Source of the DNA: a virus
Virus record (IMG/VR): IMGVR_UViG_3300042923_000881
Location: 1 to 37,784 of that record
Reading direction: 5' to 3' (one strand)
DNA: 37,784 nucleotides
Part shown: positions 4,842 through 30,302 of the stretch, piece after piece
Position numbering within the stretch: the stretch's first letter is position 1
How the letters are laid out: every line of letters begins with the position of its first letter
Translations under genes and position numbers: made by a program
Notes under the pieces: generated by a model
The model's database searches: none
What the model was told of the DNA's origin: nothing
What the model saw: the letters and a program-made list of their open reading frames with translations, nothing else

Positions 4842-4862
4842 ACCATCCACGAGGACGTGCGC

Positions 4863-5974: not shown

Positions 5975-6226
5975 ATGAGCTCCGAAGCGGAGATCGAGCA
6001 GGCGCGCTCTGCCGTCGAAGAGGCCATACAGCGGTTCGTTTCCCTGGCCGCCACCTTCGACCGTCCATTCATGACCGGCTGGGCTGTCGCATTCGAGTAC
6101 ACCAGCGCCGACCTCGACGACGAAGGCAACACCGCCGACAGCGTCATCGTGCCGACCGTGCAGAGTCGCGCGACCAGTCGAGGACTGTTCGAGCTAGGCG
6201 TCGACCACTTCCGAAACCAGCGCTAG
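5975..6226 (+). CDS. Small conserved phage protein
   Basis: An 83-residue protein from ATG 5975 with a strong GAGAGGAG site upstream. An N-terminal amphipathic helix (E-I-E-Q-A-R-S-A-V-E-E-A-I-Q-R-F) is followed by a beta-rich part, T-G-W-A-V-A-F-E-Y ... V-P-T-V-Q-S-R-A-T-S-R-G-L-F-E-L-G. Small proteins of this kind (G-W-V-V-V-x-E, then S-x-G-L) recur in actinophages, often near terminase. Function unknown. Confidence 0.75.
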   Translation: MSSEAEIEQARSAVEEAIQRFVSLAATFDRPFMTGWAVAFEYTSADLDDEGNTADSVIVPTVQSRATSRGLFELGVDHFRNQR

Positions 6227-6247
6227 CGACGCCACGCCTCGCACGCA

Positions 6248-6282
6248 AGCCCGGAACGGGCTGGCGGGCCACCCGAAACGGG
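6248..6282 (+). repeat. Two tandem mini-hairpins before the small terminase
   Basis: AGCCCG-GAA-CGGGCT at 6248-6262 and CCCG-AAA-CGGG at 6272-6282 are two small perfect hairpins with purine triloops. The second is followed directly by a GGGGGAG ribosome-binding site. The same CCCGAAACGGG occurs at 10704-10714 before the scaffold gene. Confidence 0.6.
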
Positions 6283-6293
6283 GGAGCACGAGC

Positions 6294-6311
6294 ATGAACG
6301 GACTCACGTAG
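6294..6311 (+). other. Five-codon ORF (MNGLT, amber stop) fused in phase to terS start
   Basis: ATG 6294 has the only good ribosome-binding site here (GGGGGAG, 7-base spacing) and a context shared with the scaffold gene start. After five codons it meets TAG at 6309-6311, directly followed in the same frame by GTG 6312 of the small terminase. It is either a translationally coupled leader peptide or an amber interruption of a longer start. Confidence 0.5.
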
Positions 6312-6818
6312 GTGGCCGGCCGCGGCCCCGCACCCAAGGCGCCCGATCAGCGCGCTCGCCGCAACAAGGACGCCGTCCAGCTACGCGTCCTGCCGGCGAC
6401 CGCCACCCGGCAGCCTTCCCTGCCGACGATCTACTTCGACGTCGAGATCGAGGACGCAGCCGGGAACAAGCAGGTCGTGAAGCGCCGGTTCAACTGGCCG
6501 ACCGCGACGCGCGGCTGGTGGGAGATGCTCGGCCAGCACCCGCTGGCGCCGGAGTTCACCGATCTCGACTGGTCGTATCTCGCGGAGACGGCGCTCATTC
6601 ACGCGCACTTCTGGAAGGGTGACATGCGCGTCGCCTCCGAGCTTCGGCTCCGCGAGGCCAAGTACGGCTTCACGCCCGAAGACCGCGCGCGCCTGCGGCT
6701 GCAGTTCGCGATCGCCAACACGGCCGAGATCGAGGCCAAGGAGCGCCTAGACGCGCACCAAGCGCCCGGGTCCGCGCGCGATCGCGCTCGCGGCATCACG
6801 CGGCGGGAGCCTGCCTGA
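6312..6818 (+). CDS. terS: Terminase small subunit
   Basis: A 168-residue protein. The N-terminus G-R-G-P-A-P-K ... R-A-R-R-N-K-D is typical of actinophage small terminases of the P27-like kind. The middle carries F-N-W-P-T-A-T-R-G-W-W-E-M-L and the C-terminus is helical and basic. It recognises the packaging site and loads the large subunit. GTG 6312 is the first start after an in-frame TAG and has no ribosome-binding site of its own; initiation probably depends on the ATG at 6294. Its stop overlaps the large-subunit ATG by one base (TGATG). Confidence 0.88.
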   Translation: MAGRGPAPKAPDQRARRNKDAVQLRVLPATATRQPSLPTIYFDVEIEDAAGNKQVVKRRFNWPTATRGWWEMLGQHPLAPEFTDLDWSYLAETALIHAHFWKGDMRVASELRLREAKYGFTPEDRARLRLQFAIANTAEIEAKERLDAHQAPGSARDRARGITRREPA

Positions 6819-8506
6819 TGCCGTGGATGCCACAGTCGGAGGATGACTTCCCGACGTTGGGCTGGCAGGTGGCCGATCAGATGGCGGCCTACCTCGGCCG
6901 TCCGGATGCCGGCGACGACGAGCGGTTCGATCCGTTCATCCTCACGCTCGAGCAGCAGGAGTTTCTCAACGAGCTGTACCGCATCGACCCGTTTACGGGG
7001 CGTCGGGTCGTCCACCGCTCGGCGCTGGTGCGTCCGCGTGGTTGGGGCAAATCCCCGTTCGTCGCGGCGATCATGATCAGCGAGGCGATCTTCGAGGTGG
7101 TGCCGGACGGGTGGGACGCCGACGGTCAGCCGGTCGGTAAGCCGTGGTCGAAGGTCCGCACGCCATACGTGGCGATCGCCGCGGTGTCGGAGGATCAGAC
7201 GAAGTACACCTGGGACCCGCTGCTGGAGATGCTCCGCCAGGGTTCGGCGGTCGACGAGTTCGACCTCGAGCCGATGGACTCGTTCGTCGCGCTGGAGCGC
7301 GGCCGCATCCAGCCGATCACCTCGTCGGCGACGACGAGCAAGGGCGCTAAGACGGTGGCAGCGTCGCTGGACCAGACCGAGACGTGGCTGAAGAGCAACG
7401 GCGGCGTGAAGCTGGCACAGGTGCTGCGCAACAACGCGACGAAGCTCGGCGGCGTGACGATCGAGACGCCCAACGCGTATGTGCTCGGTGAGCGGTCGGT
7501 GGCTGAGGCGTCGTTCCAGTTCTGGGACGACATCCAGTCGGGCAAGTACAAGAACCTCGAGGAGATCCGGTCGATCTACTTCGATCACCGGCCGGCGCCG
7601 GCGGACACGCAGATCGACGACATGGACTCGCTGGTGCACGGCCTGCGGGTGGCGTACGGCGACTCGTCGAAGCACCCCGACGGGTGTCTGCTGCACGAGC
7701 CGCCCTGCCCGCCCGGATGGTTCGACGTGCACCGCGGCGCCCTGGACTTCTTCGACACCGCCAACGACCCGGCCGTGATGCGCGCGGACTTTCTGAACCA
7801 GATCGACGCCGCGCGCGACGCGTTCGTGTCCGAGCCGGAGATGCGCGCGTGCGTCGACGCCGGCCGAGGCAAGACGATCAGCCGCACCGAGCCTGTCACG
7901 CTCGGCTTCGACGGCTCGGAGGGCCGCAAGGACAAGCACATCGCCGACTCCACGGTCCTAATCGGCTACTCGGTCACCCAGCGCCACTTCTTCACGATCG
8001 GCATCTGGGAGCAGCCGGACGGCCCCGCCGGCGAGGGCTGGCGGCCGCCGAAGCTCGAGATCGAGCAGGCGGTGGCGAAGGCCTTCAAGGACTACAACGT
8101 CGTCGGGTTCTACGCGGACCCGTCGGCGGGGTGGGCCGGCGAGGTGAAGCAGTGGGAGGCCACGCACCACAAGCGCCTGAAGGCGAAGATGAGCGTGCAG
8201 GAGCCGATCCGGTGGCGGCAGAAGGATGTCAGCCGGACCGTCGACACGTTCGACCAGCTCGAGTCCGCGATCCGGCAGGTCGACGTCACCTTCGACGGCG
8301 ACCCGACGATGATCCGGCACTTCATCCACGCCCGCCGCGACCCACGCCGCGGAGGCTACGTGCTGAAGAAGGCCGACGACAACCAGGACTACGGCAAGAT
8401 CGACGCGACCTACGGGGCCGCGTTCGCCTTCGCCGCCGGCAACGACGCAATCGGTAAGGGCGTCACCGCGCGCACCAGCTCGCGTCTGCCGCGACAGCTT
8501 CGATGA
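6818..8506 (+). CDS. terL: Terminase large subunit
   Basis: A 562-residue protein of typical length, the ATPase-nuclease motor that fills capsids. The N-terminal ATPase domain has a Walker A-like R-P-R-G-W-G-K-S-P at residues 72-80 and a Walker B region S-L-D-Q-T-E-T-W with D185. The C-terminal RNase H-like nuclease domain begins near T-L-G-F-D-G-S-E-G (D365), with a second acidic site in F-Y-A-D-P-S-A-G near residue 430. Coupled to the small subunit by TGATG. No sign of damage. Confidence 0.96.
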   Translation: MPWMPQSEDDFPTLGWQVADQMAAYLGRPDAGDDERFDPFILTLEQQEFLNELYRIDPFTGRRVVHRSALVRPRGWGKSPFVAAIMISEAIFEVVPDGWDADGQPVGKPWSKVRTPYVAIAAVSEDQTKYTWDPLLEMLRQGSAVDEFDLEPMDSFVALERGRIQPITSSATTSKGAKTVAASLDQTETWLKSNGGVKLAQVLRNNATKLGGVTIETPNAYVLGERSVAEASFQFWDDIQSGKYKNLEEIRSIYFDHRPAPADTQIDDMDSLVHGLRVAYGDSSKHPDGCLLHEPPCPPGWFDVHRGALDFFDTANDPAVMRADFLNQIDAARDAFVSEPEMRACVDAGRGKTISRTEPVTLGFDGSEGRKDKHIADSTVLIGYSVTQRHFFTIGIWEQPDGPAGEGWRPPKLEIEQAVAKAFKDYNVVGFYADPSAGWAGEVKQWEATHHKRLKAKMSVQEPIRWRQKDVSRTVDTFDQLESAIRQVDVTFDGDPTMIRHFIHARRDPRRGGYVLKKADDNQDYGKIDATYGAAFAFAAGNDAIGKGVTARTSSRLPRQLR

Positions 8507-27456: not shown

Positions 27457-28953
27457 CTAACCGACAGCAGGATTCCAGGCGGGGATGATGTGCACGCGTT
27501 CGCGCCAGACGCCGGTGCCCTGCCGGGTCGGTCGGTGAATCTCGACGCGGGATATCAGAGCGCGCAGCAGGTTGCGCTGCTCGAGCACCGTCAGCTCATC
27601 CCAGTCGGCGTCGAGGTTCATAGCAAGCTGACGGGGGTCGATACTGGGCCGCGGCGCGACCCGCTGCCGCCGCTCCTTCAGCGCGGCGAGGTCACTGTCG
27701 AGCTGGACGACCGCCGCCTCGTACGCCGCGTCGGGCATGCTGCCTCCGGCCCACCTGACCGTGATGCGCCCGAGTCTGTTCGTCAGATCCTCGATCTTGC
27801 GATCAAGGGTCGTTGCGTTGTCGAGCTGGATGACGCGGCGCTCTTGCTCGCGAACTGCCGCGGCCGCGAGCTCGTCGACGTCGCGGGCGAGGTCGGTGAC
27901 CCACTCACGCACCACGGTCTCGACGAGCGCTCGCGTCATGAACATCCCGCGGCCGGTGCGCTTCTGCCCTGCTCGGGAGCACTTGTAGTCCTTCAGGCCC
28001 TGGTTGCCGACGTGCATCGGAGCGCCACAGTCCCCGCAGAAGATCAGCCCTGTGAGCATGTACTTCGGTTCGACGACCTGGGGAGGCGCCGGCGCGTCGA
28101 GCCGCATCGCCTTGTACGCTTCCCACTCGGCCTCGGTGATGACCGGGTCGTGTCGGCCGTCGTGGAATGTGGCAGCGCTGATCCGCCAGTCGCGGACGCC
28201 GCCGCGCCTCTGGCCCCGGTGGATGATCTTGCCAGCGCCGAACCCGGCGTCGAGGAGGTGCGTGACCGTGACACGAGACCACTCCCCGCCGGCCTTCGTC
28301 GTGATGCCGCCGCTGTTGAGCCAGCGCACGATCCGGGTGAAGCCTTCACCCCGCAGGTACCTGCGGTACATCTCGGCGAGTACGGGCGCCTCGGTGTCGT
28401 TGGGCGTGTACGTGCCGTCGTCCTGCTTGTCGTACCCGTAGCGGGGTCCGCCGTCCGAGGGGAGGCCCATCCGGCGGCGTCGTGCGTGCGCTTCCCGCCA
28501 GGTCTCGCCGATGAGTTCTGCTTGGTAGGCGTTCATCTCGCCGAGCATTCCTCGCGCGAACCGGCCCGAGGGTGTGGCGTCGTTGGCCTCGGTGGCCGAC
28601 TCGATCGAGCCGCCGGCGACGTCGACGCGGTCGAGGGCTACCGCCCACCGGAGACGCTGGCGGCCGACGCGCGAGAACTTCCAGACCACGAGCACGTCGC
28701 ACTCGCCTGCCTCGAGTCGGGCGATAGCGCCGTCCAGTTTCGGCCACCACGCTGACGAGCGGCGGGAGCCGGAGTACTTGGACTCTTCGACGCCCTCTAC
28801 CCAGTCGACGATCCTGTACCCGCGCGATGTTGCGTAGCTCTCGATCGCGTAGCGCTGCACCTCGGGCGATGTGCCCCCGTCCTTCTCCATCGAGACACGG
28901 ATCAGCCCGATGGCGCGCTTCGGTGCCTCTGCGTCGGTGCGGGGCTGGCTCAC
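27457..28953 (-). CDS. int: Serine integrase (large serine recombinase)
   Basis: A 498-residue protein from GTG 28953 on the minus strand, overlapping the upstream RHH stop (GTGA). The N-terminal catalytic domain has G-L-I-R-V-S21-M-E-K-D with the nucleophile serine and V-V-W-K-F-S-R-V-G-R. The recombinase domain follows (G-P-R-Y-G-Y-D, then I-V-R-W-L-N-S-G-G-I-T-T). The zinc-ribbon/coiled-coil region carries C306-G-D-C309 and C325, but the fourth cysteine expected a few residues on (usually G-C-G-R) reads G-R-G-M. It integrates phage DNA at attP/attB. No excisionase was identified. Confidence 0.95.
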   Translation of the reverse strand: MSQPRTDAEAPKRAIGLIRVSMEKDGGTSPEVQRYAIESYATSRGYRIVDWVEGVEESKYSGSRRSSAWWPKLDGAIARLEAGECDVLVVWKFSRVGRQRLRWAVALDRVDVAGGSIESATEANDATPSGRFARGMLGEMNAYQAELIGETWREAHARRRRMGLPSDGGPRYGYDKQDDGTYTPNDTEAPVLAEMYRRYLRGEGFTRIVRWLNSGGITTKAGGEWSRVTVTHLLDAGFGAGKIIHRGQRRGGVRDWRISAATFHDGRHDPVITEAEWEAYKAMRLDAPAPPQVVEPKYMLTGLIFCGDCGAPMHVGNQGLKDYKCSRAGQKRTGRGMFMTRALVETVVREWVTDLARDVDELAAAAVREQERRVIQLDNATTLDRKIEDLTNRLGRITVRWAGGSMPDAAYEAAVVQLDSDLAALKERRQRVAPRPSIDPRQLAMNLDADWDELTVLEQRNLLRALISRVEIHRPTRQGTGVWRERVHIIPAWNPAVG

Positions 28954-29129
28954 GTCTGTGGATCCTCGTCGTAGTCGTCGCCGACGTACTCGATCAGTGC
29001 GATGCGGACGATCTCGCTGAGGTTGTCTCCCTCGGCTTTCGCCTTCGCAAGCGCAGCGAAGTAGAGCTCGTGCGGGATGCGGAACGCGTGAAGCGGGGTC
29101 TTGGCCACTCGCCCATAGTTCCAGCCCAC
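28950..29129 (-). CDS. Ribbon-helix-helix protein upstream of integrase
   Basis: A protein of 59 residues if it starts at GTG 29129, or 72 from ATG 29168. H-A-F-R-I-P-H-E-L-Y-F-A-A-L-A-K-A-K-A-E-G-D-N-L-S-E-I-V-R-I-A-L-I-E-Y-V is a textbook Arc/MetJ-type RHH fold: one strand and two helices, dimeric, DNA-binding. Upstream of GTG 29129 a TACACC element ends 7 bases before it, as in the leaderless genes nearby; no ribosome-binding site serves ATG 29168. It overlaps and probably is co-transcribed with int, so it may regulate integrase. The longer 29651 frame looks like an antisense shadow. Confidence 0.8.
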   Translation of the reverse strand: MGWNYGRVAKTPLHAFRIPHELYFAALAKAKAEGDNLSEIVRIALIEYVGDDYDEDPQT

Positions 29130-29130
29130 C

Positions 29131-29160
29131 TTACGGGGTGTAGCTACACGCTGATACGCT
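29131..29160 (+). promoter_or_regulatory. Promoter TTACGG-18-TACGCT, leaderless RHH gene
   Basis: -35 TTACGG at 29131-29136 and -10 TACGCT at 29155-29160. The ATG at 29167 follows after 6 bases. The 12-bp palindrome at 29138-29149 fills the spacer. Confidence 0.6.
29138..29149. promoter_or_regulatory. Palindromic operator GTGTAGCTACAC
   Basis: A perfect 12-base palindrome between the two divergent RHH genes and inside the promoter spacer. A relative, CTGTAGCTACAG, is at 29398-29409; the shared core is TGTAGCTACA. RHH dimers bind short palindromes, so one or both neighbours may bind here. Confidence 0.6.
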
Positions 29161-29166
29161 CCGGCC

Positions 29167-29319
29167 ATGGCATCCCGGGATGGTGGGATCGAGAGCGAAC
29201 TTCTCGCGAGGGCGGAAGCGATCGCGAAGCTGCAGGGCGAGACTGTCGATGATGTCGTCGAGCGAGCGCTCAGGGCGTACGTGGAGCGGGCTGACGAGGT
29301 CGCTAGCCAAGGTGAATGA
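29167..29319 (+). CDS. Second small RHH-like protein
   Basis: A 50-residue protein from ATG 29167: M-A-S-R-D-G-G-I-E-S-E-L-L-A-R-A-E-A-I-A-K-L-Q-G, then D-D-V-V-E-R-A-L-R-A-Y-V-E-R-A. The helix-turn-helix register (E-L-L-A-R-A-E-A-I-A ... T-V-D-D-V-V-E-R-A-L-R-A-Y-V) matches helices A and B of RHH proteins, with a very short strand. It diverges from the RHH-int operon, starts leaderless from TACGCT and is closed by the terminator at 29333. An antagonist or partner of the other RHH protein is possible. Confidence 0.65.
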   Translation: MASRDGGIESELLARAEAIAKLQGETVDDVVERALRAYVERADEVASQGE

Positions 29320-29332
29320 CTTGGTGGGGCAT

Positions 29333-29352
29333 TGTCCCCCTTTCGGGGGACA
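29333..29352 (+). terminator. Hairpin terminator TGTCCCCC-TTTC-GGGGGACA
   Basis: A perfect 8-bp stem with a TTTC loop, 14 bases after the stop of the small RHH gene. No T-tract. Confidence 0.7.
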
Positions 29353-29397
29353 CCGAACCGCGGCTTTACCGAATCGTTACGCAACGCTGTGCAATAC

Positions 29398-29409
29398 CTG
29401 TAGCTACAG
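29398..29409. promoter_or_regulatory. Second TGTAGCTACA palindrome
   Basis: CTGTAGCTACAG, a perfect palindrome sharing a 10-base core with the site at 29138-29149, 260 bases away. It may be a second operator allowing DNA looping by the RHH protein. Confidence 0.5.
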
Positions 29410-29520: not shown

Positions 29521-29772
29521 ATGCCTACGTACATCTGCGGGACAGGCACATCCGCGTGCGAGAAGACATGCCGTGTGGCGGCACTGCGAGTCGGGATGCT
29601 GTGCCCGACCGCGCCCGAGCTGCGGGAGATCGCCAAGCAGCTCGAGACCACGGTCGGCGCCCTAATCCGTGAGGGTGGCTTCGGCTTCGTCGACGACCTG
29701 AGCGGGGTCGACTCCGAGGGCTTCGCAGAGTGCGCGCAGGTATCGCAGCGTGATGTCCCGGCGGCCGTTTAG
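29521..29772 (+). CDS. Possible small protein, convergent with and overlapping the repressor
   Basis: An 83-codon frame from ATG 29521 with only a loose G-rich sequence upstream. The first 50 residues look protein-like: four cysteines, then A-P-E-L-R-E-I-A-K-Q-L-E-T-T-V-G-A-L-I-R-E-G. The last 37 codons lie antisense to the end of the repressor gene. High third-position GC supports coding, but no family was recognised. Transcription of this frame would produce RNA complementary to the repressor mRNA. Confidence 0.35.
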   Translation: MPTYICGTGTSACEKTCRVAALRVGMLCPTAPELREIAKQLETTVGALIREGGFGFVDDLSGVDSEGFAECAQVSQRDVPAAV

Positions 29773-29907
29773 CAGCCGCTCGACCGTAGGGCGTGACAAG
29801 CCGGTGATTTCGGCGAGCTTGGTGTAGCTCGGTTGGCCGGGTCTCTGTTGTTCCCTCTTCAAGATGCGGGCGATGGCGAGGGTGTAATCGTCCACTTCGG
29901 GCTCCAT
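29662..29907 (-). CDS. Immunity repressor (XRE-type HTH)
   Basis: An 81-residue protein on the minus strand. ATG 29907 was chosen because a TACAGT -10 box ends 7 bases before it; GTG 29916 would add three residues. Residues ~28-80 form an XRE/Cro-CI helix-turn-helix: Y-T-K-L-A-E-I-T-G-L-S-R-P-T-V-E-R-L-L-N-G-R-R-D-I-T-L-R-Y-L-R-A-L-C-E-A-L-G. There is no C-terminal peptidase domain, so SOS-type self-cleavage is not expected. It diverges from the Cro-like gene and most likely represses the early rightward promoter. Confidence 0.88.
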   Translation of the reverse strand: MEPEVDDYTLAIARILKREQQRPGQPSYTKLAEITGLSRPTVERLLNGRRDITLRYLRALCEALGVDPAQVVDEAEATLTD

Positions 29908-29913
29908 TCGGAT
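29903..29913. promoter_or_regulatory. Candidate operator, 11-base repeat copy 1
   Basis: TCCATTCGGAT occurs perfectly here, over the repressor start codon, and at 30039-30049 inside the Cro-like promoter. Its ends TCC...GGA are self-complementary. Confidence 0.5.
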
Positions 29914-29914
29914 C

Positions 29915-29944
29915 ACTGTACTCCGTGGTGGAGCACGTTCCGAA
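29915..29944 (-). promoter_or_regulatory. Repressor promoter (leaderless)
   Basis: On the minus strand, -35 TTCGGA (29944-29939), 18-base spacer, -10 TACAGT (29920-29915), then 7 bases to ATG 29907. The spacer contains the inverted repeat GTACTCC-n5-GGAGCAC. Confidence 0.55.
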
Positions 29945-30068: not shown

Positions 30069-30302
30069 ATGGATAACGACGAGTACGATCGGGCAGTCGG
30101 CGAGAACGTCAAGACCGCCTTCATCGCGCAGTTCGGCTCCCTGCGCGGAGGGTCCGAGGCTTCGGGCATTCCGTACGCCTCGCTCGACCGCAAGGTCCGG
30201 GGGATCACGTCGTTCAACACCCGCGAGCTCCGCCAGGCGGCGCAGGCCACTGGTCGTAAGGTGCGCTCGTTCCTCCCCAGCGAGACGGCGGCCGCGCGAT
30301 GA
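30069..30302 (+). CDS. Cro-like / HTH regulator, first early gene
   Basis: A 77-residue protein. ATG 30069 fits the leaderless promoter; the in-frame GTG at 30060 lies inside the -10. G-E-N-V-K-T-A-F-I-A-Q-F-G-S-L-R-G-G-S-E-A-S-G-I-P-Y-A-S-L-D-R-K-V-R-G-I-T-S-F-N-T-R-E-L reads as an HTH fold of Cro type. The position, first gene divergent from the repressor, is that of Cro. A role in excision instead cannot be ruled out. It ends in an ATGA overlap. Confidence 0.82.
   Translation: MDNDEYDRAVGENVKTAFIAQFGSLRGGSEASGIPYASLDRKVRGITSFNTRELRQAAQATGRKVRSFLPSETAAAR

Follow-up and report, generated by a model that had tools for sequence, protein, structure and literature searches.

The serine integrase gene int of the virus record IMGVR_UViG_3300042923_000881 (positions 1 to 37,784; this 37,784-bp stretch, analysed as a whole, is referred to below as the window) is preceded by a divergent pair of small genes of the ribbon-helix-helix (RHH) type, RHH1 and RHH2, which probably meters integration. 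RHH1 very probably reads a palindrome located in the spacer between the two genes, because its ribbon predicts the operator centre across 31 loci. RHH2, from which the ribbon Arg is missing, is for that reason more likely to be a partner that does not bind DNA, or an antagonist. By profile comparison RHH1 is a member of PHROG 6506, an actinobacterial family widespread in phages, plasmids, and chromosomes, and its link to the integrase, as seen in two phages, is lineage-specific. Little has been described so far of what limits integrase expression in serine-integrase phages. Moreover, in a family of tiny regulators whose operator is readable from three ribbon residues, the operators and regulons of many mobile elements would become predictable, and the recurring ribbon-less partner may be a simple anti-repressor.

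Organisation of the module

The integrase gene (27457 to 28953, minus strand) was identified from its Pfam domains and by comparison with a second phage, L018. It codes for a large serine recombinase of 498 aa comprising the resolvase, recombinase, and zinc-ribbon domains (Resolvase, E = 3.7e-23; Recombinase, 6e-16; Zn_ribbon_recom, 2.1e-6). With RHH1 (28950 to 29108, minus strand; 52 aa) ending at 28950 and int beginning at 28953, the two genes overlap by 4 bases (GTGA). The start of RHH1 is very likely the GTG at 29108 (VAKTP..., VAKTPLHAFRIPHELY...), the point where homology within the family begins, and the palindrome in the spacer, site 1, therefore lies outside the RHH1 coding sequence. 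RHH2 (29167 to 29319, plus strand; 50 aa) begins with an ATG and is divergent from RHH1, with a 58-bp spacer separating the two start codons. An earlier note on this DNA had described such a divergent RHH-type pair, one gene overlapping int by 4 bases, and its coordinates were confirmed. The structural genes of the window are read rightward, and the portal protein is closest to that of a Microbacterium phage.

One close relative was found, L018, a 28.9-kb IMG/VR record with the gene order of the window: HTH repressor (83% identity), Cys-rich ORF, RHH2 (64%), RHH1 (63%), and integrase (82%). The phage module is supported by just this one close relative, which limits the best explanation offered below. 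The earlier note had let its reading depend on translation of the 50-codon frame of RHH2, and the frame stands: in L018 it is gapless at the identity given above, with the same start, and its product resembles the RHH1 profile. The differences between the two phages are distributed 13/9/20 over the three codon positions, and this preference for third positions is moderate evidence of coding.

The RHH1 and RHH2 proteins

The assignment of RHH1 draws on PHROG 6506, its L018 counterpart, and the family alignment. The protein is similar in sequence to models of RHH (Arc/MetJ-type) proteins: it matches PHROG 6506 'Arc-like repressor' (E = 6.8e-10) and Pfam RHH_1 (E = 0.004, under the Pfam cut-off), and in the PDB its profile matched the omega repressor and ORF56 (E about 0.002). 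A single-sequence monomer model has helices at residues 13-26 and 30-45 and a strand of just 2 residues.

RHH2, recognised from its ATG frame and by comparison with L018 and the RHH1 family, is homologous to RHH proteins (hhalign against the RHH1 family, probability 96%, E = 6e-9), its Pfam matches all being under cut-offs. What it lacks is a recognisable ribbon strand with DNA-contacting residues: in both phages Gly occupies the position of the invariant RHH1 ribbon Arg, just 5 residues are found ahead of this position, and the single-sequence monomer model, which is weak evidence, has two helices, the first from residue 3, and no strand. Among 12 aligned RHH2-type proteins, 11 carry another residue in place of the ribbon Arg, which never varies in the RHH1 alignment. 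Proteins of this type sit in the equivalent divergent position in many Microbacteriaceae.

Palindromes and promoters

Site 1, a predicted operator of sequence GTGTAGCTACAC (29138 to 29149), lies in the RHH1–RHH2 spacer, and a second predicted copy, site 2, CTGTAGCTACAG (29398 to 29409), lies upstream of a small rightward ORF, the two centres being 260 bp apart. The 10-mer TGTAGCTACA has exactly two copies in 37,784 bp (29139 and 29399), even allowing one mismatch, while in 100 shuffles its mean number was 0.08 and two copies were never obtained. L018 has GTGTACCTACAC and CTGTACCTACAC, the sole two copies of TGTANNTACA in the record, also 260 bp apart, each of them having CC at its centre where the window has GC. 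The earlier description of a palindrome in the promoter spacer and a second one 260 bases on is thus correct, and the conservation of the palindromes, on which that note also relied, is found at both sites. The interval between the sites aligns gapless throughout in the two phages. Site 2 is conserved at 10 of 12 positions, as well as 35 of the 189 non-coding 12-mers, and taken alone its conservation is not exceptional.

Site 1 is situated between the proposed −35 (TTACGG, 29131 to 29136, plus strand) and −10 (TACGCT, TATCCT in L018; 29155 to 29160, plus strand) of the RHH2 promoter; the latter lies 6 nt before the ATG, so that the mRNA would be leaderless. On the opposite strand, the conserved TAAGGT (29128 to 29133), kept in L018 and 4 bp from site 1, is likely the −10 of the RHH1-int promoter, a promoter which is weakly defined; it overlaps the opposing −35 of RHH2. 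The two promoters would overlap face to face, and one bound repressor could therefore block both.

The TANNNT-N6-ATG geometry is also present in L034, L038, L039, L095, L127, and others. At these five host loci a TTGNNN-like box precedes the operator and TANNNT comes after it, with the ATG of an RHH2-type gene 6 nt further on, from which we infer the promoters and the position of the operator within the leaderless promoter of such genes. The arrangements TTACGG-18-TACGCT-6-ATG of the window and TTACGG-18-TATCCT-6-ATG of L018 match this host-locus geometry.

At site 2, no −10 of good quality was detected. Between RHH2 and site 2 there is a perfect inverted repeat, TGTCCCCC-TTTC-GGGGGACA (29333 to 29352), kept in L018, a probable bidirectional terminator isolating RHH2 from the right-hand side. 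The possible target of site 2 is an 83-aa Cys-rich ORF (MPTYICGTG...; 29521 to 29772, plus strand), convergent with the gene of an HTH (Xre-type) probable immunity repressor (29662 to 29916, minus strand; PHROG 4583 transcriptional repressor, 1.1e-11). Its codon-position differences from L018, 9/6/15 over 48 codons, show a third-position bias; it has no relatives among phages or PHROGs and no database match. The Cys-rich ORF (MPTYICGTG..ACE..CR) overlaps the 3' end of the HTH repressor gene on the opposite strand. The repressor gene itself (29662-29916, minus strand) is divergent from another regulator gene (30069-30302, plus strand), both belonging to PHROG 4583, likely an immunity repressor and its Cro-like partner.

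Covariation of ribbon and operator

The three residues before F-R-I, taken as the putative DNA-reading ribbon, differ from locus to locus, as does the centre of the operator. Operators were picked by their fixed GGTG/CACC ends and the centres were then compared. Over 31 loci the ribbon triplet predicts the operator centre (partial Mantel test with the remainder of the protein as control, r = 0.38, p = 5e-5), while overall protein similarity has no predictive value (r = −0.01). As the test takes in related loci, repeats were collapsed to 22 distinct combinations, for which the covariation gave p = 0.018. In ten pairs with an identical ribbon and less than 50% identity elsewhere, 90% of centre positions are in common, against a baseline of 50%. 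The covariation is good, though indirect, evidence for RHH1 binding at the palindromes.

The triplet KRG corresponds to TGTGGCCACA in four Microbacteriaceae loci and to TGTGGGCACA in Gordonia phage Crater, with 24-32% identity outside the ribbon, MKS and VKS to TGTCATGACA, LRS, LHS, and ARS to TGTATATACA, and IRG and IKG to TGTTACAACA. LRN of L018 corresponds to TGTACCTACA (centre TACCTA), and LRN is found with TGTACCTACA in the unrelated contig L178 too, as GGTGTACCTACACC. LHA, the triplet of the window, is found just once; the centre that goes with it, TAGCTA, is also that of L192, whose ribbon is ARQ. The HKS loci, with a more complex double site, are an exception. In L192 two GGTGTAGCTACACC sites, with the same centre as the window sites, are located 23 bp apart upstream of the RHH1 relative.

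Distribution of the RHH1 family

RHH1 relatives were found in 25 of 400 Microbacteriaceae genomes (profile search, E ≤ 0.001), the clear members sharing MPNQPKTP-xxx-F-R-I. Many form a divergent pair with another small RHH gene, and in most of the clear members the spacer contains a GGTGNNNNNNCACC palindrome. The chromosomal RHH1/operator/RHH2 units of Microbacteriaceae, of which no published description was found, match the window in the divergent layout, the operator class, and the location of the operator in a leaderless promoter, but they have no integrase overlap, and their RHH2-type gene often has a Zn-ribbon protein gene beside it or fused to it. The Zn-ribbon protein (CRxCGIRV...ACSEDCADxLWI) follows or is fused to the RHH2-type product at many of these loci (L033-L061; e.g., L034:1132-1440 and L060:986-1411).

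Further relatives of RHH1 occur in Gordonia, Mycobacterium, and Rhodococcus phages, in plasmids, and in uncultured viruses. The PHROG 6506 proteins of these phages have the N-terminal TP-xxx-F/V-R-I ribbon in common with RHH1, and gp41 of Gordonia phage Crater has two GGTGTGGGCACACC upstream; however, in the annotated phages examined the gene does not adjoin an integrase. About half of the viral relatives had no GGTGN6CACC-type site upstream in the scan. Relatives of RHH1 and RHH2 surfaced only via family profiles or host-type sequence: tblastn of the two window proteins against named phages gave no matches, nor did a pattern scan of viral contigs with RHH1 or RHH2. An IMG/VR scan for two TGTAGCTACA 236-266 bp apart gave 16 matches, none with a detectable integrase, RHH1, or RHH2 relative; they are not of the GTGTA..TACAC form, many look like repeats in AT-rich sequence, and they were read as chance.

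Link to recombinases

The overlap of RHH1 with int is known just in the window and L018. Upstream of distant integrases of the same kind (L019-L022, L025, and L230-L235; at most about 44% identity) there is neither RHH1 nor RHH2 nor an operator, which argues for a recent coupling of RHH1 with int; a genome scan with the integrase returned distant relatives only. A search of other serine-integrase phages for the same gene order, proposed in the earlier note, thus yielded L018 but failed among the distant integrases. Nor is the module dedicated to the integrase, as that note had put it: the RHH1/operator/RHH2 unit is found widely with no integrase beside it, and distant integrases are without the unit.

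An independent parallel is found in L133, where the operator of the unit itself, GGTGTATATACACC, is present in two copies (4844-4857 and 6144-6157) on either side of a tRNA-Lys gene; one precedes by 65 bp the gene of a tyrosine recombinase (Pfam Phage_integrase, 1e-28) adjoining that tRNA gene, and the other lies between the divergent RHH genes. L187 has a related serine integrase 132 bp upstream of its RHH1-like gene. Together these loci suggest, without proving it, that RHH units repeatedly come to control recombinases. In the open-access literature searched, no paper tying an RHH regulator to a serine integrase was found, which is weak evidence of absence.

Proposed mechanism and alternatives

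RHH1 would be a short DNA-binding repressor, encoded on the leftward transcript together with the integrase and translated just ahead of it via the 4-bp overlap. Because site 1 lies between the −35 and −10 of RHH2 and beside the −10 of RHH1-int, RHH1 bound there would shut off RHH2 and limit its own synthesis and that of the integrase (autorepression); it would also bind site 2, ahead of the small ORF that runs rightward and converges on the immunity repressor gene. RHH2, predicted to keep the two dimerisation helices and to have no DNA-reading ribbon, most likely pairs with RHH1 into inactive heterodimers and would thus act as a leaky antagonist letting integrase be made; the simplest reading is a helix-only RHH2 that would remove RHH1 from DNA by pairing with it. 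Repression by RHH1 is likely, and antagonism by RHH2 plausible. The whole mechanism, with RHH1 a repressor at sites 1 and 2, RHH2 its antagonist, and the integrase metered, we consider on balance probable, its binding, repression, heterodimers, and effect on integration being what we infer from sequence. More tentatively, RHH2 may titrate RHH1 in a repressor/anti-repressor cassette which, found across actinobacterial mobile elements with a ribbon-to-operator code, was wired onto a phage integrase. The activator/antagonist pair suggested in the earlier note retains its second half, the antagonist role being consistent with an RHH2 devoid of the ribbon Arg, while no sign of an activator was found.

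In Salmonella phage P22, the promoters of mnt and arc-ant diverge and overlap, and the Arc operator is situated within the promoter. Both arc and ant are repressed by Mnt, and mnt expression is in turn inhibited by Arc (PMC7549136, PMC11016777). This immI region, with its two small RHH repressors, follows the same plan as the window, contrary to the earlier statement that there is no described equivalent (PMC7549136, PMC11016777). In both, two RHH-type genes are divergent from one spacer and an RHH gene opens the operon that contains the gene under control: Arc heads such an operon and autoregulates, and RHH1 likewise precedes int, with a 4-bp overlap and in what would be a joint transcript. 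The controlled gene, however, is the antirepressor gene ant in P22 and a serine integrase gene here, and RHH2, having no ribbon, is probably not a Mnt-like DNA binder. The likeness is one of architecture; the RHH unit on the serine integrase would be a variation on the immI plan, differing in the controlled gene and the ribbon-less partner. A Mnt-related gene is tied to lysogeny and prophage excision in Pf phage as well, where PflM (DUF5447), derived from a Mnt-like gene, serves lysogeny maintenance and its loss leads to prophage excision (PMC11112994), but Pf is a filamentous phage with a tyrosine recombinase and without a divergent RHH pair.

The P22 precedent (PMC7549136, PMC11016777), the divergent layout, and the homology of RHH2 to RHH1 would also agree with two true repressors, as Mnt and Arc, RHH2 binding DNA and holding int off in the lysogen and RHH1 autoregulating. 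This is rather unlikely, given the Gly that in both phages replaces the ribbon Arg, the mere 5 residues before it, the absence of a modelled strand, and an operator centre that follows the RHH1 ribbon, the one ribbon for which covariation was computed.

The earlier note also raised a looping autorepressor. RHH1 at both sites, 260 bp apart, would then form a repression loop over RHH2, and the argument for this is only the spacing, which in both phages is exactly 260 bp, or about 25 helical turns. With a gapless interval, equal spacing needs no loop, and most host loci have one operator only, which makes looping improbable. To our knowledge, RHH repressors cooperate on adjacent sites.

It is highly improbable that RHH1 and RHH2 are remnants of a type II toxin–antitoxin system, orphan antitoxins whose toxin was replaced by int: the overlap with the next gene is antitoxin-like and weak antitoxin-like matches exist (PSK_trans_fac, VapB, and RelB, all under cut-offs), but the neighbours are int, RHH, and HTH genes with no toxin gene adjoining RHH1 or RHH2, no recognised toxin was found in the relatives' neighbourhoods examined, and PADLOC gave no match. 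The defence-system and toxin–antitoxin readings were set aside on the lack of a PADLOC match and of a toxin neighbour. Equally little credence is due to RHH1 or RHH2 as a recombination directionality factor, with the palindromes serving recombination instead of transcription; a position next to the integrase gene, with probable co-transcription, speaks for this, but attP appears to lie about 1.7 kb from site 1 and operators of this type occur at loci without an integrase.

Attachment site and neighbouring genes

The position of attP follows from L018, an integrated prophage. Homology between L018 and the window ends at the stop codon of the integrase gene, and at this prophage end a host gene of a tadA-like secretion ATPase is cut (TIGR03819, first 132 of 340 positions). 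As the prophage ends at the stop codon, attP would be at the 3' end of int, and the palindromes were ruled out as att sites. The interrupted tadA-like gene is at L018:6497-6961, and at the junction GGTTAGCGC is common to the integrase ends of the window, L018, and L187.

There may be a link between RHH1 units and defence islands. An RHH1 unit in L126 adjoins a gene of a NaeI-type restriction endonuclease (6152-7102; Pfam NaeI, 4e-102), and a DGQHR-like protein was identified by eye in L060.
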